The notes under the pieces are model-generated. The model had not been told where the DNA came from. It ran no database searches and saw nothing but the letters and a program-made list of their open reading frames with translations. A DNA stretch of 64,000 nucleotides from Flavobacteriia bacterium (GTDB lineage: Bacteria; Bacteroidota; Bacteroidia; Flavobacteriales_D; Crocinitomicaceae): the NCBI GenBank assembly GCA_947450325.1, contig CANFUT010000025.1, forward strand, positions 1 to 64,000, read 5' to 3'. The position numbers and the translations under genes were made by a program. Below are positions 32,145 through 42,448 of the stretch, one piece after another. Position 1 is the first letter of the stretch. Every line of letters begins with the position of its first letter.

Positions 32145-33518
32145 TTATTCTCCCAAAATCCCCAATGTAAATTTCTCTGCAAGCGCTGATTTTTTCGTTT
32201 TTGCTGCGTATTCTAAATATTTTGACTGAGCTGTTAAATAACTTATTTCCCTTGCATTAATCAAAAACAGTGAACTTTCTCCTAGATCAAATAAACTGCG
32301 TTCAGCGACTGACAAAAGCTTGTAATTTTCCGCAACAGTCAAGCTTGTTTGTGCTTGGTTGACATGTGTTGTCCATTCGTTGCGATTTTGAATTTGTTTG
32401 GTTCTCAAATCCCTCTGTTTTTGTTGTATTTCGATCTGTGTATTTTCAATTTTGAAATTCGAAATTTGTAATGCTGAACGTTCTTTTCTCAACAAAATTG
32501 GCATATACAGCGTTGCTCCCCATTTGTAATTGGAAAATGAAAGTTGCGTGGAGACTAAATTTGCAACTGGTTTTAGTAAATTGTAATTGACTGTCAACTG
32601 CGGTTTTAACATTTCAACTTTAAGTTTTCTTTCTATTACTAAATCTTTCATCTTTAAATCATACCAAGTCAACATTGGATGCTGGTTTTCTGAATTATTC
32701 AATAATGAAATTGGAGATTCAATTTCTAGTTTTTCAGACTTTACATTATTTTCCAAAATTAATGGAAGCATTCCTTTTTCCCACAAATAATTTTCAACGG
32801 AAAGCTTGGCGTTTTTAGCATTTAATTGTCTTTGTTCAACTTCCAAAATTCGGTTGAAATATTGCGCAGACGCCTCAATTGTGTCAACTGCAGCCCTTTC
32901 TCCAAGTTCGAAATTAGTTCTCATTTGTTGCAGTCTAATCTCAGCTAAATTTAATCCTTCTTTGGCCAATATTAATTGCGCTTCTTGCTCTTGCCAATAG
33001 ATAAAAATCTGTCCAGCTTCATAGAGTAAGTTGTTTAAAGTAAGAGATTTTTCAACTTTCGTTTGATTGTAAATTACATGGGCTCTTTTGAGTTGAGTTC
33101 TTCTATCATCAGTAAAAAGTCCACGGCCAATAGGAACTTCAAAACCGGCATAAGTCAATCCTCCTGAGGGAGTTCTGTGTTCGGGATTCAAATAATCTCC
33201 TTTATTGAAATCACCAGCAACTTTCAAATCGACTCCTATTCGAGTTGGAATTTTTATTCCAGTGCTAATTGTACTGTAATAGGTTTTTCCATCAAAATAT
33301 TTTTGGTCAATTCCGCCAAAAAGCACTGGATCGAAAGCGCCTTTAGACATTCTAATCGTTTGCTCAGCCAATTCAATATTATTGGATGCTACCAATGCAA
33401 TCGGATGATTTTCTTTTACATGTTGTAAGAAGTCCTTCTGCGTCAAAATACTGATTGTATCTTGTGCGTAGTTTAGACCCGTGCTCATACACAAAATTGA
33501 AAATAGTAGATTTTTCAT
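32145..33518 (-). CDS. TolC-family outer-membrane efflux/secretion channel
   Basis: A 457-residue precursor, starting MKNLLFSILCMSTGLNYAQ (signal peptide). The mature protein is dominated by two long alpha-helical hairpin regions with Gln/Asn/Leu periodicity (AEIRLQQMRTNFELGERA, VAENYKLLSVAERSLFDLGESSLFLINARE), typical of TolC trimers. An upstream ATG at 33581 overlaps the HlyD gene and is not used. The start shares ATGA with the HlyD stop. It would complete a tripartite exporter with the adaptor and ABC-like proteins upstream. Confidence 0.9.
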   Translation of the reverse strand: MKNLLFSILCMSTGLNYAQDTISILTQKDFLQHVKENHPIALVASNNIELAEQTIRMSKGAFDPVLFGGIDQKYFDGKTYYSTISTGIKIPTRIGVDLKVAGDFNKGDYLNPEHRTPSGGLTYAGFEVPIGRGLFTDDRRTQLKRAHVIYNQTKVEKSLTLNNLLYEAGQIFIYWQEQEAQLILAKEGLNLAEIRLQQMRTNFELGERAAVDTIEASAQYFNRILEVEQRQLNAKNAKLSVENYLWEKGMLPLILENNVKSEKLEIESPISLLNNSENQHPMLTWYDLKMKDLVIERKLKVEMLKPQLTVNYNLLKPVANLVSTQLSFSNYKWGATLYMPILLRKERSALQISNFKIENTQIEIQQKQRDLRTKQIQNRNEWTTHVNQAQTSLTVAENYKLLSVAERSLFDLGESSLFLINAREISYLTAQSKYLEYAAKTKKSALAEKFTLGILGE

Positions 33519-34825
33519 TTTTTGACAGCTTTTGTTTTGGGAGTATAATAGTTTGGTGGAAATCCATTGATTTTTCGCCACAATTCATACCAAATTGGAA
33601 CGTCATTCAACAATGTCATACTTTGTACAGCAACGCCCAAACGTAGACCTTTCGGCCATTTATGCACGGAAGTATCAGGTTCAACTAGCACACGGTATTT
33701 TCCATTTGGACCAATGTAATTGTCAATGGCAAAGACTTTTCCTCCATATGTTCCATAGCTTACATTCGGCCAACCTGAAAATACGATAGCTGGCCAACCA
33801 TCAAATTGAATCCGTACTTTGTTCCCGACGTGCAAAAGTGGCAAGTCAATTGGCTCAACGAAAATCTCTACTGCCAAATCTGTCAAAGTAGGCACAATGC
33901 TTACCATGGGACTACCTTCCTTTACCGTTTCGCCGACTCCATTTTTTAAAGCTTGTGAAACAAAACCATCTTGCGGAGCTGTAACATAATAAAATCCTGA
34001 TCTAATCGCATAATTTGAAACTTGATTCTGCATTTTTGTAACCGTTGCTTCAGTATCGAATAGACCTGAAAGTGCACTAGATTTTTCAGATTCACTCTTC
34101 CCAATTTTGTCACGATATTCTGCATCAATTGAAATCAATTCTGTTTTAGCATTTAGAAGTTCATTTTTTGCAGTCAGCAATTTGTTTTCTAAGCTTACTA
34201 CTTTCGCTTCCATTTCTTGAACTTTCAAGCGTTTATTTTCTAAATCAGTAAGAGATTTTAATCCTTGTTTTGCTAATTCTTCCGTTCTATTGTACTGTTT
34301 GACTGCGATTTCTAATTGTTTTGCATTGGCTTGGTAATCCATGCTGTCAGAAATCACTTTCAATTTTCCTTGTTTGATTTTATTGTTGGCTTGCGCTAAT
34401 TTTGCAATTCGGCTGTCAATTAATGCATCAATCTGACTGTCAAGTGCTTTTACTTTTACCATATAAGAATCAGCGCTACTTTCTTTTGCCCTCATTTGAG
34501 ATTCTGTTCGTTGAATCAAATTCGGATCCATGTATTCAGATTTAACTTCTGCCAAGTGAACAATGGTATCACCTTTTTTTACAAATTGACCTTCTTGTAC
34601 ATACCATTTGACAATTCTACCTCCGATAACCGCTTGAATTGTTTGTGGTCTATTATTTTGATTTAAGGAAGTTACATTGCCCTTTGAAGTAATTGTTTGC
34701 GTCCAAGGTAGAAATAAGATTATTGTAAGAATTGCAAAAAACCAAAGCAGTAATTTGAGCATTCTTTTAGGTGTTTTTTTTCTGTTTAACATCTGAACAG
34801 AAGCAAATTGTTGAAACATTTTCAT
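33515..34825 (-). CDS. HlyD-family periplasmic adaptor
   Basis: A 436-residue membrane-fusion protein with one N-terminal transmembrane helix (LLLWFFAILTIILFLPW), a lipoyl/barrel-sandwich half (IGGRIVKWYVQEGQFVKKGDTI), a long coiled-coil hairpin at about 110-260 and the second lipoyl half (VTAPQDGFVSQALKNGVGE), followed by a beta-barrel (VEIFVEPIDLPLLHVGNKV). It bridges an inner-membrane transporter and TolC. It begins 3 nt after the ABC-like gene stop and overlaps the tolC start by 4 nt. Confidence 0.92.
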   Translation of the reverse strand: MKMFQQFASVQMLNRKKTPKRMLKLLLWFFAILTIILFLPWTQTITSKGNVTSLNQNNRPQTIQAVIGGRIVKWYVQEGQFVKKGDTIVHLAEVKSEYMDPNLIQRTESQMRAKESSADSYMVKVKALDSQIDALIDSRIAKLAQANNKIKQGKLKVISDSMDYQANAKQLEIAVKQYNRTEELAKQGLKSLTDLENKRLKVQEMEAKVVSLENKLLTAKNELLNAKTELISIDAEYRDKIGKSESEKSSALSGLFDTEATVTKMQNQVSNYAIRSGFYYVTAPQDGFVSQALKNGVGETVKEGSPMVSIVPTLTDLAVEIFVEPIDLPLLHVGNKVRIQFDGWPAIVFSGWPNVSYGTYGGKVFAIDNYIGPNGKYRVLVEPDTSVHKWPKGLRLGVAVQSMTLLNDVPIWYELWRKINGFPPNYYTPKTKAVKK

Positions 34826-34828
34826 CGT

Positions 34829-36454
34829 TTAAAAATTTAATTGTTCAAATTGTATCGTTTTCCAGTTTGACATAATGTTTTCATTGCTAGCACATAAGAT
34901 CGTGATGGACGGATAATTTTTTTCAATATTTTCAATAATTTCATTTTGTTCATCCGCGTTGAATGTAGAACCGTGAAATGAAATTAAAAGTAATTTGGGA
35001 TTGTTTACAATGGCTTTGGCAATCAATAAACGTTCACGTTCAGCTTCAGATATAATCTTGTTTGCCTTCGACAGATTGAAATTATAACCCTCCGCTTTTT
35101 GAGCAACAAAATAATCCATATGCAATGTTTGAATAGCTTTTTCTAAATCAGCCAAGTTCAAGTTTTCTCTTGACATTAGAATATTGTCAATCAATGTTCC
35201 GTCGAATAATTGCGTATTGTGAGAAAACCAACTAAATTGTTCCAAATTTGCAGCAAGTCTATCAGCATCTGGAATTGTTTTATTCCAGCGAGGTTTGGTT
35301 TTCATGGAAATCGAAGGATCTATTAATTCCTGAAAAAGTTTTACGATTTCTTGTTGATGACCTCCTTTTACAAAAATTGACTCATGTTCTTGGATCGAAA
35401 AGATTTGAGTTAGATTTTCTTGTTCCACGTTTATGAGTTCAATTGGAAATAATGAATCGGTATCTGGATTTCTTTGTTTTTCTTCAAATGTGATAGGAAC
35501 GTCAGTGATTTGACCTAATTTTTCCAAAGATGTAAATACATCATATAGCGTTTCCAATGATTGGATGATTTTTTCAATAGCGCTTAAAATCAAAATAATC
35601 AAAACTTCAGCTGCCACAAATTGACCCAAATTCATTTGTTGGTCAATTACCAAATACCCGCCTAAGCCAAGTAGGGAAGCAACGATCAACGCCTTGATGG
35701 CAATCATCCAAATGTATTGTTTCCAAAGAATTTTGAAATGACTTTCTCTACTCGAAAGATAATCTTGCACATGTTCATCAATACGATTCAATGCATGTGG
35801 ACTATTTGGCGCTAGCCTGAAACTCCAATTTGTTTTTGCAATTTCTTGCAACCAGTAGGCAGTTTTATACTTGTATTTAGATTCTTCTAAGCTTGTTTCA
35901 AAACCTTTTTTGATGATTGGTTTAAAAACGATATAAATCAAGATGATTAAAGAAATTCCAAAGGCAATGTAGAAAGGATGGTAAAAAGCCAGTACCAAAA
36001 GACTAAAGAATATTTGTAAAAATGCAGCTGAAAATTCTAGTAGCACTTTAGAAATTCCTTTTTGGAGGTTAATTACATCAAAAAATCGGTTCATTAATTC
36101 CGCTGGGATTTTACCTTTCAAAAATTCTCTGTCAAATCTTGGAAATTTGTAAGCTAAATTGAAGGAATAGCGCGTGAAAATCCTTTGTTGAATATTTTCA
36201 GTAATTCTCAACTGCATAATTTGCAGAACGCCTGTTAAAATTACACCACAGATTACTAAGAACACTAATATAATCCAAGAAGTAGTTATTTCTCCACCTT
36301 GTATAAAGTGAATGACAGATTGAATCCCGAGTGGTAAACTTAAACTAACGATTCCGCTAAAAATGGCATAAATATAGAGTTGAGATACTTCTCTTTTATC
36401 AAGTTTGAGAAGCTCACCCAATCGTTTCCAAGGTGATTCAGTTGCTTTGCCCAT
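34829..36454 (-). CDS. ABC-exporter-like protein with a degenerate (pseudo-ATPase) nucleotide-binding domain
   Basis: A 541-residue half-transporter. Residues about 20-310 are a type I exporter membrane domain with six hydrophobic segments, including the usual IQQRIFTRYSFNLAYKFPRFDREF coupling region read in two parts. Residues about 335-541 align with an ABC ATPase but every catalytic motif is lost. The Walker A region reads VKGGHQQEIVKLF (362-374) with no GKS/T; the Q-loop Gln is replaced (FSHNTQLFDGT, 410-420). The LSGGQ signature is ISEAE (468-472), Walker B is LLLISFHG (488-495) with no DE, and the H-loop His is absent (ILCASNEN). The reading frame is intact. It overlaps tetR by 17 nt. 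Confidence 0.88.
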   Translation of the reverse strand: MGKATESPWKRLGELLKLDKREVSQLYIYAIFSGIVSLSLPLGIQSVIHFIQGGEITTSWIILVFLVICGVILTGVLQIMQLRITENIQQRIFTRYSFNLAYKFPRFDREFLKGKIPAELMNRFFDVINLQKGISKVLLEFSAAFLQIFFSLLVLAFYHPFYIAFGISLIILIYIVFKPIIKKGFETSLEESKYKYKTAYWLQEIAKTNWSFRLAPNSPHALNRIDEHVQDYLSSRESHFKILWKQYIWMIAIKALIVASLLGLGGYLVIDQQMNLGQFVAAEVLIILILSAIEKIIQSLETLYDVFTSLEKLGQITDVPITFEEKQRNPDTDSLFPIELINVEQENLTQIFSIQEHESIFVKGGHQQEIVKLFQELIDPSISMKTKPRWNKTIPDADRLAANLEQFSWFSHNTQLFDGTLIDNILMSRENLNLADLEKAIQTLHMDYFVAQKAEGYNFNLSKANKIISEAERERLLIAKAIVNNPKLLLISFHGSTFNADEQNEIIENIEKNYPSITILCASNENIMSNWKTIQFEQLNF

Positions 36455-37130
36455 AGTTTATGTTTTGAGAAATTAATAGTTTAAGAAAATCTATGAAAAA
36501 ACTTTCTACATTGTCTTTGTCTTGTTGTTTGTCAGTTAGTCTTGGAAGATGATCAGCAAAAAAATGTTGGATATGAGCACCTTCGATAATCGTAGTGATT
36601 AACATCTTTGAAAAAGCATAATTTGGAATGATTTCTTGTAACCAGCCACTTAATTTTGCAACTAAATTTTTGTAATTATCAAAAGCTCCATTTTTGTTTA
36701 CATCGTCTACTTTTTTATTAAGAATCGATTTGATTCCTTCACTTTCGATAATTCTTTTGAGTTTAAGTTCATCCACAAAAGCATAAATATCGTTGGAATT
36801 TTTTTTCTCAATCAACATTTTGATGGCTTTGAAAAGTTTCTCTTCAGTGTCTTCGATATGCAAGGTTTCGACATGAATTTGATATTCAATTTTTCCCCAA
36901 TACCATGCGTAAAGAAACATCAATAATTGATGCTTGTTCTCAAAATAGCGATAAACTGATGCTTCCGTTGAATTGATTTTTTGCGCTAATTTTTTAAAAG
37001 TAAAAGCTTCAAAACCGATTTCATCTATCAATTCAATGCTATTTTGCATGATTAAAACGCCCAGTTTGGTTTCCTGAGGATCTTTCAAGCAAGTACAATT
37101 TGGTATTGTCAACTTAATTTGCAAAAACAT
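36438..37130 (-). CDS. TetR-family transcriptional regulator
   Basis: A 230-residue regulator with an N-terminal helix-turn-helix (IELIDEIGFEAFTFKKLA, then STEASVYRYFENKHQLL) and a helical ligand-binding domain. It is the first gene of the exporter operon and overlaps the ABC-like gene by 17 nt. A 26-bp near-perfect palindrome overlapping a TAnnTTTG element lies 10 nt upstream, so autoregulated repression of the whole exporter operon is likely. The inducer is unknown; for such exporters it is often the exported compound or a related lipid. Confidence 0.92.
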   Translation of the reverse strand: MFLQIKLTIPNCTCLKDPQETKLGVLIMQNSIELIDEIGFEAFTFKKLAQKINSTEASVYRYFENKHQLLMFLYAWYWGKIEYQIHVETLHIEDTEEKLFKAIKMLIEKKNSNDIYAFVDELKLKRIIESEGIKSILNKKVDDVNKNGAFDNYKNLVAKLSGWLQEIIPNYAFSKMLITTIIEGAHIQHFFADHLPRLTDKQQDKDNVESFFIDFLKLLISQNINYGQSN

Positions 37131-37242: not shown

Positions 37243-38547
37243 CTATTCACCATTCAAATACTTCTTATAAGTCTCCACGGCCAAAACACGGGCAATTTTA
37301 TGATCAACAATTGGTTTTGGATAGGCATCCGTACCCAATTCTGGAACCCATTTTTTGGTATATTTCAGTTGTTTGTCGAATTTTTCAAGTTGTAAATCTG
37401 GACTAAATACACGGAAATACGGTGCAGCATCGCATCCGCATCCTGCGGCCCATTGCCAACCACCGGCATTGCTTGCCAATTCAAAATCCAATAATTTTTC
37501 AGCAAAATAACTCGCGCCCCATCGCCAATCGATAAGTAAATGTTTGGTCAAGAAACTCGCTACGAGCATGCGTACTCGGTTGTGCATAAATCCAGTTGCA
37601 TTTAGTTCTCGCATTCCAGCGTCCACAAGCGGATAACCTGTTTTACCTTCGCACCAACTTTTGAATTGAGTTTCATCGTTGCGCCAAACTATTTGGTCGT
37701 AGTTTTTTTTGAAAGAATCGTTTCCAGAATAGGGAAAATGAAAAATGATCATTTGGTAAAAATCCCTCCAAATCAATTCATTGAAAAATTTTTCATTGGT
37801 TTCTGAAGCAACATGCGCTAGTTTACGGATGCTGATTGTTCCGAAACGCAAATGTAAACTCAAACGGGTTGTGCCCAAAATCGAAGGAATATCTCTCGTT
37901 TCGTGGTAATTCTGAATGATATTTTGTGCAATTTTTATAGCAGGAAATTCGACTGTTTGAATGCCGTCAAATCCCATTGATTGTAAACTTGGAATTTCAT
38001 TTTCAGCTTGAATATCAGACAGATTTTGAGAATATTTTTCTACTGGATAAGAACTGATGTAAAAAGCATTTAATTTTTCTTTCCATTTTCGCATGTATGG
38101 TGTGAAAATAGTATAAGGTTTATCATCAGGTTTGAGCACTTCATTTTTTTCAAATATCACATGGTCTTTCGAACCTTTAAAATCAATGTTCAATTTAGTC
38201 AGTTGCTCAAAAATGGCTTTATCACGTTCTAATGCCAGTGGTTCGTAATCACGGTTGGTGAAAATCGTTTTGACCTTAAACTTGGCCGCAATTGATGGAA
38301 TAATGTCTATTGGATTTCCAAAATAAACATGTAAATCAGAACCTAAATTTTTATATTCAGCTTTTAGACTTTCAATTGTTTGATGAATGAAAATTACGCG
38401 CTGATCAGTGCTCTGAAGTTTACTGATAATAGTTTCATCAAAGATAAAAACGGGAATCACTTTTCCTCCGCTTTTCAATGCACGAAATAAACCTGCATTG
38501 TCGTCAATTCTTAAATCTCTGCGGTGCCAAAAAAGTACATTTTCCAT
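37243..38547 (-). CDS. phr: Deoxyribodipyrimidine photolyase / cryptochrome family
   Basis: Photolyase repairs UV-induced pyrimidine dimers with blue light. The 434-residue protein has the N-terminal antenna-binding domain (NVLFWHRRDLRIDDNAGL) and the C-terminal FAD domain (NELIWRDFYQMIIFHFP, MRELNATGFMHNRVRM, GGWQWAAGCGCDAAPYFRVF). The WAAGCGCDAAPYFR form is the one I recall from Bacteroidota photolyases. It is the last gene of the carotenoid operon, 21 nt after the pterin synthase gene, consistent with joint light-stress control. The antenna cofactor cannot be read from the sequence. Confidence 0.93.
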   Translation of the reverse strand: MENVLFWHRRDLRIDDNAGLFRALKSGGKVIPVFIFDETIISKLQSTDQRVIFIHQTIESLKAEYKNLGSDLHVYFGNPIDIIPSIAAKFKVKTIFTNRDYEPLALERDKAIFEQLTKLNIDFKGSKDHVIFEKNEVLKPDDKPYTIFTPYMRKWKEKLNAFYISSYPVEKYSQNLSDIQAENEIPSLQSMGFDGIQTVEFPAIKIAQNIIQNYHETRDIPSILGTTRLSLHLRFGTISIRKLAHVASETNEKFFNELIWRDFYQMIIFHFPYSGNDSFKKNYDQIVWRNDETQFKSWCEGKTGYPLVDAGMRELNATGFMHNRVRMLVASFLTKHLLIDWRWGASYFAEKLLDFELASNAGGWQWAAGCGCDAAPYFRVFSPDLQLEKFDKQLKYTKKWVPELGTDAYPKPIVDHKIARVLAVETYKKYLNGE

Positions 38548-38568
38548 GATCCAATTTCTAAATTGAAA

Positions 38569-38973
38569 TTATTTTCCGTCGTAGTAAACACTGTTTCGTT
38601 CAGTTTCCCAAAGTCTAACTTCCAATTTGTATTTTGAATCTAATTTAGCTCTCAATTTATTCCAAATCACCACGGCAATGTTTTCTGCTGTAGGTATTAA
38701 ATCCTTAAATTCAGGTCGATCTAAATTGAGATTTGTATGGTCAAAAGCTTCTAAAACTTCTTCGTTGATGAGGTCGCTTAAAATTTTTAAATCAATCAGA
38801 TATCCAGTTTCTGGATCTACTTCACCTTCAATCCATGTTTCTAACACATAATTGTGTCCATGGAAATTAGGGTTGTTGCATTTACCGAAGATCAATTCGT
38901 TTTTAGCATCGTCAAATGTTGGATTGTAAAGTCGGTGAGCGGCATTAAATGTTTCTCTTCTGCAAACTTTCAT
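38569..38973 (-). CDS. 6-pyruvoyl-tetrahydropterin / 6-carboxytetrahydropterin synthase homologue
   Basis: A 134-residue T-fold enzyme with zinc ligands H13 (AAHRL), H38 and H40 (NFHGHNY), catalytic Cys32 (FGKCNN), the PTAEN motif and WETERNSVYY at the end. The family turns dihydroneopterin triphosphate into either 6-pyruvoyl-tetrahydropterin or the queuosine precursor. The Cys is compatible with both. Position between idi and phr, rather than with queC/E/F genes, hints at pterin supply (for example a photolyase or photoreceptor cofactor), but that is inference. Confidence 0.88.
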   Translation of the reverse strand: MKVCRRETFNAAHRLYNPTFDDAKNELIFGKCNNPNFHGHNYVLETWIEGEVDPETGYLIDLKILSDLINEEVLEAFDHTNLNLDRPEFKDLIPTAENIAVVIWNKLRAKLDSKYKLEVRLWETERNSVYYDGK

Positions 38974-39019
38974 GTGGAGTTTTTAAGGTGAAAGTGAATT
39001 TACTGTTCAAAAATAGAAC

Positions 39020-39538
39020 TTATAGTTTGATTTTGTCTTCAAAATTGTGAATGATTTCCTTGAACCAAAAAGTGAAGGCTGCGGGGTTTTCTGCAATTTC
39101 TTTTTTCAGTTCGGGCAATGTAATCCATCTAAAATCTTTGACTTCTTCAGGATTTGGAGTTGGATTTTCGTTGAATTTCCCAATCAATACATGGTCTAAT
39201 TCGTGTTCAATCAATTGATTTTCCAATTCAACTTGATAAATAAAATGAAATCTTTGTTGAAGTACACAGTCAAATCCCATTTCTTCTTGTAATCTTCTGT
39301 GACCTGCTTCCAACAAGGTTTCACCAACTTTTGGGTGTGAGCAACAAGTGTTTGTCCAAAGTCCTTCGGAATGATATTTTCCAAAAGCTCTTTGGTGAAT
39401 CAAAATTTCGTTTTGGTCGTTCCAAACAATGATAGAAAATGCACGGTGTAAAAGCCCTTTTTGATGTGCTTCTAATTTTCCGATACTACCAATGTTTTCA
39501 TCTTTTTCGTTGACAAGAACGATTAAATCTTCTATCAT
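39020..39538 (-). CDS. idi: Isopentenyl-diphosphate delta-isomerase, type I
   Basis: Idi interconverts IPP and DMAPP, the starter for isoprenoid chains. The 172-residue Nudix-fold protein has the catalytic Cys in LWTNTCCSHPKVGE and the Nudix-like GHRRLQEEMGF with catalytic Glu, plus Mg/Mn ligand His residues. It sits 3 nt after crtB in the carotenoid operon, where it would raise DMAPP supply for GGPP. Confidence 0.95.
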   Translation of the reverse strand: MIEDLIVLVNEKDENIGSIGKLEAHQKGLLHRAFSIIVWNDQNEILIHQRAFGKYHSEGLWTNTCCSHPKVGETLLEAGHRRLQEEMGFDCVLQQRFHFIYQVELENQLIEHELDHVLIGKFNENPTPNPEEVKDFRWITLPELKKEIAENPAAFTFWFKEIIHNFEDKIKL

Positions 39539-39541
39539 TTT

Positions 39542-40384
39542 TCAAATCATGTTGAAATTATGTCTCAAATAGGAAAATACAAATAAGCTGTATTTTTTGT
39601 TATTTGGGATACGAATTCGTTCATTTAAAATTGTTTCAGCAGAGGTTGATTTGATTTTAGTAAACAGTTTATAGTAGTAAATATAAGCCATGTAAACTCC
39701 AAAACGTGCATCTTTTGGAAGTTGAATAATCCCTTGATATCCTTCATGGAAATCTTTGGCGATGTCTTCTTCAATTTCTTTTTTTACTTCTGACGAAAAA
39801 TCTTCCATGTTGATGCCTGGAAAGTAAGTCCTTCCAAGGTCTTGATAATCTGCTTTTAAATCTCTTAAGAAATTAATTTTTTGAAAAGCAGAACCCAATT
39901 TCATAGCAGAATCTTTCAATTTTTGATAAGCTGTTTCATCTCCACGAACAAAAATTTTGAGGCACATTAGACCGACAACCTCGGCTGAGCCTAAAATATA
40001 TTGTTCATATTTACTTTGGTCAAATGAGGCGGTCTCAGACTCCAAATCCATTTCCATACTTGCCAGAAATGTTTCTATTAAATTTAAAGGAATATTGTAT
40101 TTGTTTACAGCCCATTGAAAACTATTTAATATCGGATTCAAAGAGATTCCCTTTTCAATAGCTTCATATGTTTGTTTTTTGAAATCAGCCAATAAATCAG
40201 CTTTGTCGAAATTGTGAAAAGAATCAACAATTTCATCAGCGAAACGAACGAATCCATAAACCGCATAAATTGGTTTTTGCAAATCCTTTTTCAGAAAACT
40301 GATTCCTAGAGAAAATGAAGTACTGTACTTTTTGGTAGTCAACGTACTCATTTCATGGGAAAGATTATCAAATATGTTTTTCAT
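39542..40384 (-). CDS. crtB: Phytoene synthase (squalene/phytoene synthase family)
   Basis: CrtB condenses two GGPP to phytoene. The 280-residue protein has the first aspartate-rich motif (VRFADEIVDSF) and the second (QKINFLRDLKADYQDLGR), plus AEVVGLMCLKIF. Length and motifs fit Bacteroidota CrtB. It lies 73 nt after crtI and immediately before idi. The co-occurrence of crtI makes phytoene synthase more likely than squalene synthase. Confidence 0.95.
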   Translation of the reverse strand: MKNIFDNLSHEMSTLTTKKYSTSFSLGISFLKKDLQKPIYAVYGFVRFADEIVDSFHNFDKADLLADFKKQTYEAIEKGISLNPILNSFQWAVNKYNIPLNLIETFLASMEMDLESETASFDQSKYEQYILGSAEVVGLMCLKIFVRGDETAYQKLKDSAMKLGSAFQKINFLRDLKADYQDLGRTYFPGINMEDFSSEVKKEIEEDIAKDFHEGYQGIIQLPKDARFGVYMAYIYYYKLFTKIKSTSAETILNERIRIPNNKKYSLFVFSYLRHNFNMI

Positions 40385-40457
40385 TCGTATGCAGTTTGTT
40401 CAGCTAATCTATTGTAACAATTGATTTCAAAAATTGTTTTAAAGTTTGATTAACTTC

Positions 40458-41936
40458 TTAATTATTTTTTTCTATTTCACGTAAAACTTCTTTTGCAACC
40501 ACTTCTCCAGAAATAATCGAAGGCGGTACACCTGGACCTGGAACTGTAAGTTGACCGGTATAAAATAAGTTTTTTAAATTTTTATTTTTCAAGCTAGGCT
40601 TCAAAATGGCGGTTTGCATAAGTGTATTTGCTAATCCGTATGCGTTTCCTTTGAATGCATGATAATCTTTCTTAAAATCATCGATGCAATAGCTTCTTTT
40701 ATAAACAATGTGTTCTTTGATGGATGTTTTGGTGTGTTTTTCCAATCTTTCCAACAATATATCTAAATATTCTTTGCGTTTTTCTTCCGAGTCTTTCAAA
40801 TTCGGAGCAAGCGGAACAAGCAGAAACAAATTTTCATGTCCTTCAGGCGCTACAGATGGATCGGTTTTTGAAGGACAGCACGCGTAAAATAAAGGCGCTT
40901 TTGGCCAATCTGGCTTTTCGTAAATCTCCACAGCATGCGCTTCGAAAGGTTCATCAAAAAATAAATTGTGGTGAAGCAAATTTTCTATTTTTTTGTTCAC
41001 TCCAAGATAGAAAAGGAGTGAAGAAGGTGCCATCGATCTTGACTCCCAGTACTTTTCAGAATAATTCGCAAATCCGTTTATTAATTTTTTGTCTGTGTGG
41101 TGATAATCTGCACCCGAAACAACATAATCACTTTCTAATGATTGTGTCGCTGTTTTGGTATGAGTTATTTTTTCGTTTGAATAATCAAAACCTGTCACTT
41201 CTTGTGAGCGTTCGATTTTTACACCTTGCTCCAAAGCTATTTTTTCAAATGCTTCAATGATGTTATACATTCCTCCTTGCGGATACCAGGTTCCCAACTC
41301 GATGTCCGCATAATTCATCAAAGAGTATAAAGCTGGCGTTTTTTGCGGCATTGCTCCTAAAAACAAAATAGGAAATTCGAGCAATGAATGAATTTTAGGG
41401 TTTTTGAAATATTTTCTGATATAGCCGGAGAATGAGGAGGTCAAATGCATTTTAAACAATCCTTTCAGGATGCGCATGTCTGCAAATTCTCCCCATTTTA
41501 AACTTGGTTTGTAAACCAAATCATTGATTCCGACATCATATTTGTAGGCTGCTTCTGCTAAGAATTTTTTCAATTTTACAGCACTACCTTTTTCTAAACT
41601 CTCAAAAAGCGCATAAAATTCATTCAAGTTTGCTGGAATATCAGTCGTTGTGTCGTCTTGCCAAAAAACACGGTAAGAAGGATCAAGCCTAATTAGTTCA
41701 TAAAAATCAGTACTGGTGTGACCAAATTTCTGATAAAATTTTTCGAATACTTCAGGCATCCAATACCAACTTGGACCCATGTCGAAAACGAAACCATCGG
41801 CTTCAAATTTTCTAGCGCGTCCACCGATGCTATCGTTTTTTTCAAGAATGGTAACATCATGTCCGGCTTGTGCAAGAAAACTTGCAGTGGATAAGCTAGA
41901 AATTCCGGCACCTAATATTGTTATTTTTTTGCTCAT
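40458..41936 (-). CDS. crtI: Phytoene desaturase
   Basis: CrtI turns phytoene into lycopene (or a neighbour product) by successive desaturation. The 492-residue protein has the N-terminal FAD dinucleotide motif (ITILGAGISSLSTASFLAQ) and the C-terminal carotenoid-desaturase signature (NLFYTGQLTVPGPGVPPSIISG). The start codon overlaps the stop of the ECF sigma gene by one base, an unusual arrangement that ties sigma and desaturase translation. No second desaturase (CrtD) is present in the window. Confidence 0.95.
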   Translation of the reverse strand: MSKKITILGAGISSLSTASFLAQAGHDVTILEKNDSIGGRARKFEADGFVFDMGPSWYWMPEVFEKFYQKFGHTSTDFYELIRLDPSYRVFWQDDTTTDIPANLNEFYALFESLEKGSAVKLKKFLAEAAYKYDVGINDLVYKPSLKWGEFADMRILKGLFKMHLTSSFSGYIRKYFKNPKIHSLLEFPILFLGAMPQKTPALYSLMNYADIELGTWYPQGGMYNIIEAFEKIALEQGVKIERSQEVTGFDYSNEKITHTKTATQSLESDYVVSGADYHHTDKKLINGFANYSEKYWESRSMAPSSLLFYLGVNKKIENLLHHNLFFDEPFEAHAVEIYEKPDWPKAPLFYACCPSKTDPSVAPEGHENLFLLVPLAPNLKDSEEKRKEYLDILLERLEKHTKTSIKEHIVYKRSYCIDDFKKDYHAFKGNAYGLANTLMQTAILKPSLKNKNLKNLFYTGQLTVPGPGVPPSIISGEVVAKEVLREIEKNN

Positions 41937-42448
41937 TAATTAGCCATGTATTGATATTCTGGAAGCGACTCCATTAATTTTTGTCGTGCAATGAAAATTC
42001 TACTTTTAACTGTTCCAATCGGAATTTCTAATTTATCAGCAATTTCTTTGTACTTGAAACCCTCAAAGTGCATGTTAAAAGGAACTTTGTATTCTTCCCC
42101 TAAATTACTGATTTTTGAGTTGATTTCTTTGTTTGTGATTAAATTTACTGCATCCTCTTGATGAACTGCTGTATTAGCAAGCATATCAAACTCTTTATTA
42201 GCATCGAAAATGGTTCCAGATTTTTTCTTTCTGCGGTATTGATTAATAAAAATGTTGCGCATGATAGTGAAAACCCAAGCTTTGAAATTTGTTTGTGCAG
42301 CATAATAATCTCTGTAAACAATCGCCTTCAACATGGTTTCTTGAGTTAAATCTTTTGCATCTTCTTCATTTCTTGTAAATCCCATAGCAAAAGATGTTAG
42401 ATGAGATTGCATGTGGATCAATGATTCGTTAAATTCAAGTGTTGACAT
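41936..42448 (-). CDS. ECF-type RNA polymerase sigma factor heading the carotenoid operon
   Basis: A 170-residue sigma-70 family protein with region 2 (NEEDAKDLTQETMLKAI, FKAWVFTIMRNIFINQYRR) and region 4 (FEGFKYKEIADKLEIPIGTVKSRIFIARQKL). No anti-sigma gene is adjacent. It is the first gene of the sigma-crtI-crtB-idi-pterin synthase-phr run and overlaps crtI by one base, so autoregulation of the run is probable. Light-linked ECF factors (CarQ of Myxococcus) are a precedent, not a proven homologue. Confidence 0.93.
   Translation of the reverse strand: MSTLEFNESLIHMQSHLTSFAMGFTRNEEDAKDLTQETMLKAIVYRDYYAAQTNFKAWVFTIMRNIFINQYRRKKKSGTIFDANKEFDMLANTAVHQEDAVNLITNKEINSKISNLGEEYKVPFNMHFEGFKYKEIADKLEIPIGTVKSRIFIARQKLMESLPEYQYMAN

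Follow-up and report, generated by a model that had tools for sequence, protein, structure and literature searches.

Exporter operon in the window

The window is a 64,000-nucleotide stretch of the Flavobacteriia bacterium (Crocinitomicaceae) assembly GCA_947450325.1 (contig CANFUT010000025.1, positions 1–64,000), and we use "window protein" for the product of its minus-strand ORF at 34829–36454. Genes for a TetR-family regulator, the ABC protein, a HlyD-type adaptor, and a TolC-type outer-membrane protein formed a compact minus-strand cluster whose members overlap or sit a few bases apart (Table 1), and the TetR protein presumably regulates the operon. The window ORF contained no internal stops. 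Its product scored 34.2 bits against PF00664 (ABC_membrane), above the cut-off of 28, and 17.8 bits against PF00005 (ABC_tran), below the cut-off of 25. Its best NCBIfam matches were NHLM_micro_ABC1 (99 bits) and T1SS families, all far below their cut-offs, and the HlyD-type adaptor scored 105 bits against TIGR01843, likewise below the family cut-off. An earlier sequence-only reading of this DNA had described the frame, membrane domain, and operon partners as intact, and each of these held up here. Upstream of the TetR gene, at window positions 37243–42448, the ORFs read as a photolyase-like gene, a sigma-factor-like gene, and carotenoid-like genes of the phytoene synthase, phytoene desaturase, and IPP isomerase types.

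Table 1 Coordinates of the exporter operon and of the domains and former motifs of the window protein.
Feature	Window position	Strand	Residues	Basis and remarks
TetR-family regulator	36438..37130	(-)		Pfam TetR_N 34.3 bits; 17-bp overlap with the exporter gene
ABC exporter protein, predicted ATPase-dead	34829..36454	(-)	541 aa; TMD 1-319, pseudo-NBD 320-541	ATG start
Transmembrane domain (TMD): six TM helices, both cytoplasmic loops, coupling helices	35498..36454	(-)	1-319	Pfam ABC_membrane; AF2 helices
Coupling helix 2 region	35801..35845	(-)	204-218	Key residues kept in the window protein, relaxed in TMD-only proteins
TM6 acidic stripe (E283, E294, E301, D305)	35540..35608	(-)	283-305
Nucleotide-binding domain (NBD) fold without any catalytic motif	34832..35497	(-)	320-541	Alignment, AF2 model, structure matches
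Former Walker A (GxxGxGKST), now GGHQQEIVK	35339..35365	(-)	364-372	Alignment, P-loop search
Former Q-loop, now FSHN (Gln position is H412)	35216..35227	(-)	410-413	Alignment
Former signature (LSGGQ), now ISEAE	35039..35053	(-)	468-472	Alignment
Former Walker B, now LLLISFHG (Asp/Glu positions are S492/F493)	34970..34993	(-)	488-495	Alignment
Former H-loop, now CASNEN (His position is N524)	34877..34894	(-)	521-526	Alignment
HlyD-type periplasmic adaptor	33515..34825	(-)	436 aa	Pfam HlyD_3 59 bits
TolC-type outer-membrane efflux protein	32145..33581	(-)	up to 478 aa	Pfam OEP 77 bits; GTG start; overlaps HlyD

Loss of the ATPase motifs

We read the motif positions in the window protein from an alignment with ordinary exporters. 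All five ATPase motifs were replaced, by exactly the strings that the sequence-only reading had listed, and a pattern search of the entire window protein found no P-loop ([AG]x4GK[ST]), which rejected misalignment as the cause of the missing Walker A. The motif loss supports the view that the window protein would be unable to hydrolyze ATP by the ABC mechanism, as that reading had proposed in stating that a homodimer would be left with no catalytic site.

The nearest ortholog (G004) shared 82% identity with the window protein, was of equal length, and carried the same altered motif strings. Between these two genes pS was saturated (0.77), while pN reached 0.074 for the TMD and 0.177 for the NBD. 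Such low pN against saturated pS indicates that purifying selection still acts on the NBD despite its lost motifs, though more weakly than on the TMD. Local pseudogene decay was rejected on the lack of stops, the matching length of the ortholog, pN far below saturated pS, and the family-wide trend described below.

Predicted structure

An AlphaFold2 monomer model of the window protein, built from 51 sequences (mean pLDDT 85.9, pTM 0.72), began with an elbow-like helix, followed by six long TM helices and a folded NBD; helices were placed at residues 20-53, 58-106, 124-156, 160-207, 220-270, and 276-317. The best VIA-align match to the model was TmrAB chain B (Z 28.6, rmsd 9.7 Å over 529 residues) and HlyB reached Z 27.9, with rmsd near 10 Å across the whole chain. 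All 50 VIA-align matches listed were ABC exporters (Z 23.5-28.6). PCAT1 was the best Foldseek match (E 3e-21, TM-score 0.49). The model thus predicts a type IV ABC exporter fold over the full length of the window protein.

Family-wide motif loss

A phylum-wide search returned 98 matches of at least 354 bits in 97 of 395 genomes, and the next match reached only 164 bits. We assembled 237 family members from order-level, phylum-wide, and named-genome searches, the last covering Flavobacteriaceae, Crocinitomicaceae, Saprospiraceae, and others with the best 80 of 564 matches taken. Members scored 354-934 bits, were distinct in their last 200 residues, and, being best matches, are an uneven sample. 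An NBD was present in 231 and absent from six. Our control set was 31 ordinary exporters from ten of the genomes (L179 and L192 left out).

The complete set of five motifs occurred in 0/231 NBD-bearing members versus 26/31 ordinary exporters. Walker A was the motif most often kept (208/231), followed by the Walker B Asp (45), Glu at the catalytic position (42), the signature pattern of Ser plus second Gly (32), the H-loop His (22), and the Q-loop Gln (14). Sixteen members passed none of these six residue tests, and the residues of the window protein are of this type. The P-loop pattern was missing anywhere in 23/231, wholly rewritten in 13 and off by one or two residues in 10. Among 59 further members from three families, examined in a fresh alignment, none had all five motifs; the P-loop pattern was present in 28 and missing in 31, with several of the misses being single changes, and one of the 59 (L349) ends at a contig edge and has no motif columns past Walker A. 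Two checks suggested by the sequence-only reading, an ortholog alignment for conserved degeneration and a search for orthologs with intact motifs, gave one picture: the nearest ortholog shares the altered strings, the loss runs through the family, and no intact copy was found among the 231 or the 59.

The order of loss was viewed on a careful IQ-TREE phylogeny made from the TMD alone, with no outgroup and rooted for drawing on the basal members. A quick tree with an outgroup joined the long outgroup branches, and the clades quoted come from the outgroup-free trees. Most basal members keep Walker A and the Walker B DE, often with the H-loop His, while a large inner clade is mostly without the motifs that the basal members keep. 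Walker A was wholly rewritten in the window clade (L009, L010, L011, and L069; support 100/100), in L225/L261/L267 (100/100), in L247/L252/L265 (100/100), as well as in two sequences standing alone, L032 and L037; it apparently was lost several separate times. We read the window gene, from these comparisons, as one end state of a family-wide, stepwise loss of ATPase function.

In L252 and L265, two members of the inner clade, Walker A is gone and Walker B is still of textbook form (LLLLDEP), which sets them apart from most of that clade. Five long members (L155, L156, L159, L160, and L163) have ~140-250 additional N-terminal residues that match no Pfam family and may be what is left of a C39-like peptidase domain.

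The graded pattern bears on whether ATP is still used in a non-standard way, with a swapped Walker B (ED for DE) and a relaxed signature allowing slow hydrolysis or cycling driven by ATP binding in most members, so that the window clade and the clade without an NBD would merely be extremes. Retention of Walker A in 208/231 members, which suggests that ATP binding may still have a role in the majority of them, fits this explanation, as do an Arg at window position 480 in 229/231 and the DE and H-loop His of most basal members. The catalytic Glu, H-loop His, and Q-loop Gln are rare, however, and the explanation is inapplicable to the window clade, which has no P-loop, and to the 51 proteins without an NBD described next. 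We consider it improbable.

Relatives without an NBD

We searched 222 genomes of three families, picked because NBD-less copies had appeared there, and found 51 proteins consisting of the TMD only in 50 genomes (28 in 27/81 genomes of one family, 10 in 10/81 of another, and 13 in 13/60 of the third). These ORFs were 329-385 aa from the first in-frame start and ended 1-20 residues past the family TMD alignment. In 51/51 the HlyD gene started -40 to +119 bp from the TMD-only stop, a spacing on which we rejected a frameshift or a split NBD behind these genes, and a TolC match lay within the stretch in 51/51. L374 (genome G566) and L421 (G642) were left out of the count as broken rather than shortened genes; both have a disrupted frame, with pieces that match the family profile separately.

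A tree that included 23 of the 51 TMD-only proteins placed them in a single clade (SH-aLRT 100), requiring one change, nested among NBD-bearing relatives, and the first six found were also one clade, at 100/99, in the careful TMD tree. This nesting is most simply explained by a single loss of the NBD. Mean pairwise TMD identity in the clade was 0.61, with the operon kept across this wide divergence. Judging from gene content, the NBD is dispensable in this clade.

Constraint on the two domains

In ordinary exporters the NBD was more conserved than the TMD in 462/465 pairs, compared with 67/378 basal pairs and 0/3000 sampled core pairs of the family. The TMD is the more conserved half in the family core, where mean identity was 57% in the TMD and 33% in the NBD. 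Among the 231 NBDs, N424 was kept in all, Arg at window position 480 in 229, G419 in 218, and F417 in 214. By the ABC fold, N424, G419, and F417 presumably face towards the TMD, and since they are kept while the catalytic residues drift, the leftover NBD may serve, where kept, as a docked structural collar.

In the TMD, K132, K195, and K312 were invariant in 237/237 members, and E86, K132, K136, H159, K195, R236, H239, E283, D305, and K312 in 51/51 TMD-only proteins. These charged residues bear on a further explanation, in which the protein does no pumping of its own: it would act as a passive conduit, a scaffold, or a receptor for substrate, supplying HlyD and TolC along a gradient or assisting some other pump. 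The completeness of the catalytic loss fits this explanation, and the HlyD and TolC partners would form a duct by themselves. The invariant charges are more than a hole needs, however, and an ungated conduit in the inner membrane would dissipate the proton gradient. We regard a passive role as unlikely.

Coupling helix 2 is a helix on which the NBD docks. Its region (residues 204-218) had a top-residue frequency of 0.48 in TMD-only proteins versus 0.77 in their NBD-bearing sisters, and TM6 fell little, from 0.84 to 0.76. Among 15-residue windows of the TMD, the largest drop in conservation was at 207-221 relative to the sisters and at 211-225 relative to the wider core; the drop at 204-218 had p 0.001 against the sisters and a weak p 0.057 against the wider core. 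In ICL1, N122, R123, F124, F125, Q131, and K132 were invariant in TMD-only proteins, suggesting that this loop has a role beyond holding an attached NBD or still binds something, and that some cytoplasmic contact may persist.

Operon conservation and the search for a partner ATPase

HlyD was found in 229/231 family loci with at least 1.2 kb of downstream sequence (L228 and L241 were without a HlyD match) and TolC in 158/161 loci with at least 2.8 kb. We found no half-transporter partner adjoining the operon in the 237 loci, within 3 kb where the sequence reached; 161 loci extended at least 2.8 kb downstream and 227 at least 0.8 kb upstream, and many had only 1.5 kb. Another ABC-ATPase-like ORF lay within 3 kb in 5/237 loci, and the one checked by Pfam was UvrA. 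Among TMD-only loci, L149 has an ABC ATPase ~4 kb away from the TMD-only gene, next to a gene for a histidine kinase, and the locus maps of L150-L154 contained no ABC ATPase.

These neighborhoods are pertinent to ATP being supplied through a partner, in which the dead subunit would pair with a canonical half-transporter or a stand-alone NBD whose gene lies elsewhere. The window genome (3.44 Mb, 42 contigs) encodes six other ABC exporters above the Pfam cut-off, ICL1 is still conserved in TMD-only proteins, and exporters built as heterodimers with a single degenerate site are a familiar arrangement, as the available part of PMC12038006 describes. The absence of an adjoining partner as far as the flanks reach weighs against this arrangement, as does the motif pattern. 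Known heterodimeric exporters keep one complete composite site, but here signature, Walker A, and Walker B are gone from the same subunit, which would leave neither composite site complete. The existence of relatives devoid of an NBD counts against a partner too. A borrowed NBD should also keep the coupling helices conserved, and coupling helix 2 is not. Moreover, the six TMD-only genomes found first each have a single family member, though G520 and G552 have both a TMD-only and an NBD-bearing copy. A separate ATPase subunit, one of the options left by the sequence-only reading, is therefore disfavored, and we rate it as rather unlikely.

TM6 acidic stripe and energy source

TM6 carries four acidic residues (E283, E294, E301, and D305) that lie within 40 degrees of one another on an ideal helix, inside AF2 helix 276-317. 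All four positions were acidic in 220/237 members, whereas of the 31 ordinary exporters 22 had none of these acids, eight had one, and one had two. Position 283 was E in 235 members, D in one, and Q in one (L238), and so acidic in 236/237 versus 0/31 ordinary exporters. TMD-only proteins had E at 283 in 51/51 and carried four stripe acids in 28 and three in 23, with position 301 non-acidic in 23/51. Basal members with Walker A, the Walker B DE, and the H-loop His have the stripe as well. It must therefore have arisen before ATPase function was fully lost, and its role might lie in binding of substrate or in gating.

We interpret the window protein as the inner-membrane part of a tripartite exporter of ABC descent that operates free of ATP hydrolysis and is most likely driven by protons, with a probability of roughly 0.55. 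The components of this interpretation differ in strength. It is highly probable that ABC-type ATP hydrolysis by the window subunit does not power the window system, and ATP-independence is well supported by the sequences; the proton step is what we infer, and protons as the source of power stand at about even odds. The sequence-only reading had offered another ATPase, another energy source, or a passive conduit or receptor, and of these another energy source fits best.

In the proposed mechanism, a homodimeric type IV ABC exporter would have given rise to an inner-membrane piece working with a HlyD adaptor and a TolC duct, two copies of which would form the usual exporter dimer. Substrate would enter from the cytoplasm or the inner membrane and pass on to HlyD and TolC, and alternating access would be driven by protons moving along the stripe E283-E294-E301-D305, a substrate/proton antiport.

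A more tentative evolutionary reading, to which we give slightly less than even odds, is that an inner-membrane ABC exporter became a proton-coupled secondary transporter in situ, yielding a further energized class of tripartite system. On the same tentative reading, extant species would show the order of the change, with the signature and Q-loop changing first, the catalytic Glu and H-loop next, and, on different branches, Walker A or the entire NBD last. This bears on whether and how an ATP-driven ABC transporter can switch to another energy source. Living intermediates, a fixed operon, and a single NBD loss on the tree make each step testable.

Comparison with known transporters

HlyB/PCAT/NHLM-type T1SS and peptide exporters. 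These share with the family the TMD, the fold, and the three-gene logic of exporter, HlyD adaptor, and TolC duct. They differ in that the window protein is without ATPase motifs, the family NBD is less conserved than the TMD, some family members have no NBD, and the TM6 acidic stripe is lacking in the 31 ordinary exporters.

Heterodimeric exporters. TmrAB, TM287/288, and BmrCD resemble the window protein in having degenerate catalytic residues in one subunit, and TmrAB chain B was its best VIA-align match. In those systems a partner supplies a complete site, whereas the window operon has no partner seen nearby and both of its composite sites would be broken.

Proton-driven tripartite pumps. 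EmrAB-type MFS and AcrAB-type RND pumps are tripartite and use protons for export via TolC. The inner-membrane component here is instead of ABC-exporter descent. A review groups the energized ABC, RND, and MFS tripartite types together (PMC8277102, in the part available). With the present family, tripartite export in Gram-negative bacteria gains a candidate class.

SbmA/BacA. The accessible part of PMC13316013 describes SbmA as a proton-driven transporter with an ABC-TMD fold, no NBD, and a glutamate ladder, and SbmA/BacA as derived from a full-length ABC transporter, an origin inferred from a tree of YddA relatives. The family resembles these SLiPT proteins, as portrayed there, in having an NBD-free ABC-exporter TMD with conserved glutamates, and the TMD-only clade is also relaxed in a coupling helix. 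According to the same part of that source, SbmA is an importer with additional TM0 helices, lacks coupling helices, and is presented with no HlyD or TolC partners named, whereas the family is presumed to export and has both partners. Degenerate-NBD intermediates also survive in the family. The SLiPT trait of neither NBD nor coupling helices contrasts with the window protein, which keeps the NBD fold and key coupling-helix residues. The SbmA_BacA Pfam family gave no match for the window protein (to E 1) or for the TMD-only protein L149 (to 0.01). By this comparison we class the family as a probable parallel to SbmA/BacA and not as a member. If the evolutionary reading is true, which we put a little below an even chance, SbmA and this family would represent two conversions from primary to secondary transport, the one here affecting an exporter within a HlyD/TolC machine.

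Other phyla and neighboring genes

Titles and abstract openings in the open-access literature, among the matches listed, contained nothing on ATPase-dead or NBD-less exporters linked to HlyD and TolC in Bacteroidota. Plasmid records of Novosphingobium, Croceicoccus, and Sphingobium (Alphaproteobacteria) had the same three-gene arrangement. The three alphaproteobacterial proteins examined lack a P-loop; they retain E283, D305, K132, H159, and an acidic residue at position 301, and are without E294 and K295. Their records bear the names "ABC transporter transmembrane domain-containing protein" or "ABC transporter ATP-binding protein", and family members recorded under the latter name may be misnamed.

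The operon of L309 (Riemerella anatipestifer) lies on a 102-kb record labeled as a plasmid; the record also carries housekeeping genes, murB and rsmI among them, and may be part of a chromosome. A carbonic anhydrase gene and a gene for DabA, an inorganic carbon transporter, were found directly upstream of two distant family operons (L156:987-1742 and L313:1362-3914), which may be coincidence. Three Saprospiraceae records (L106, L126, and L140) had a small ORF of 125-130 codons between HlyD and TolC.
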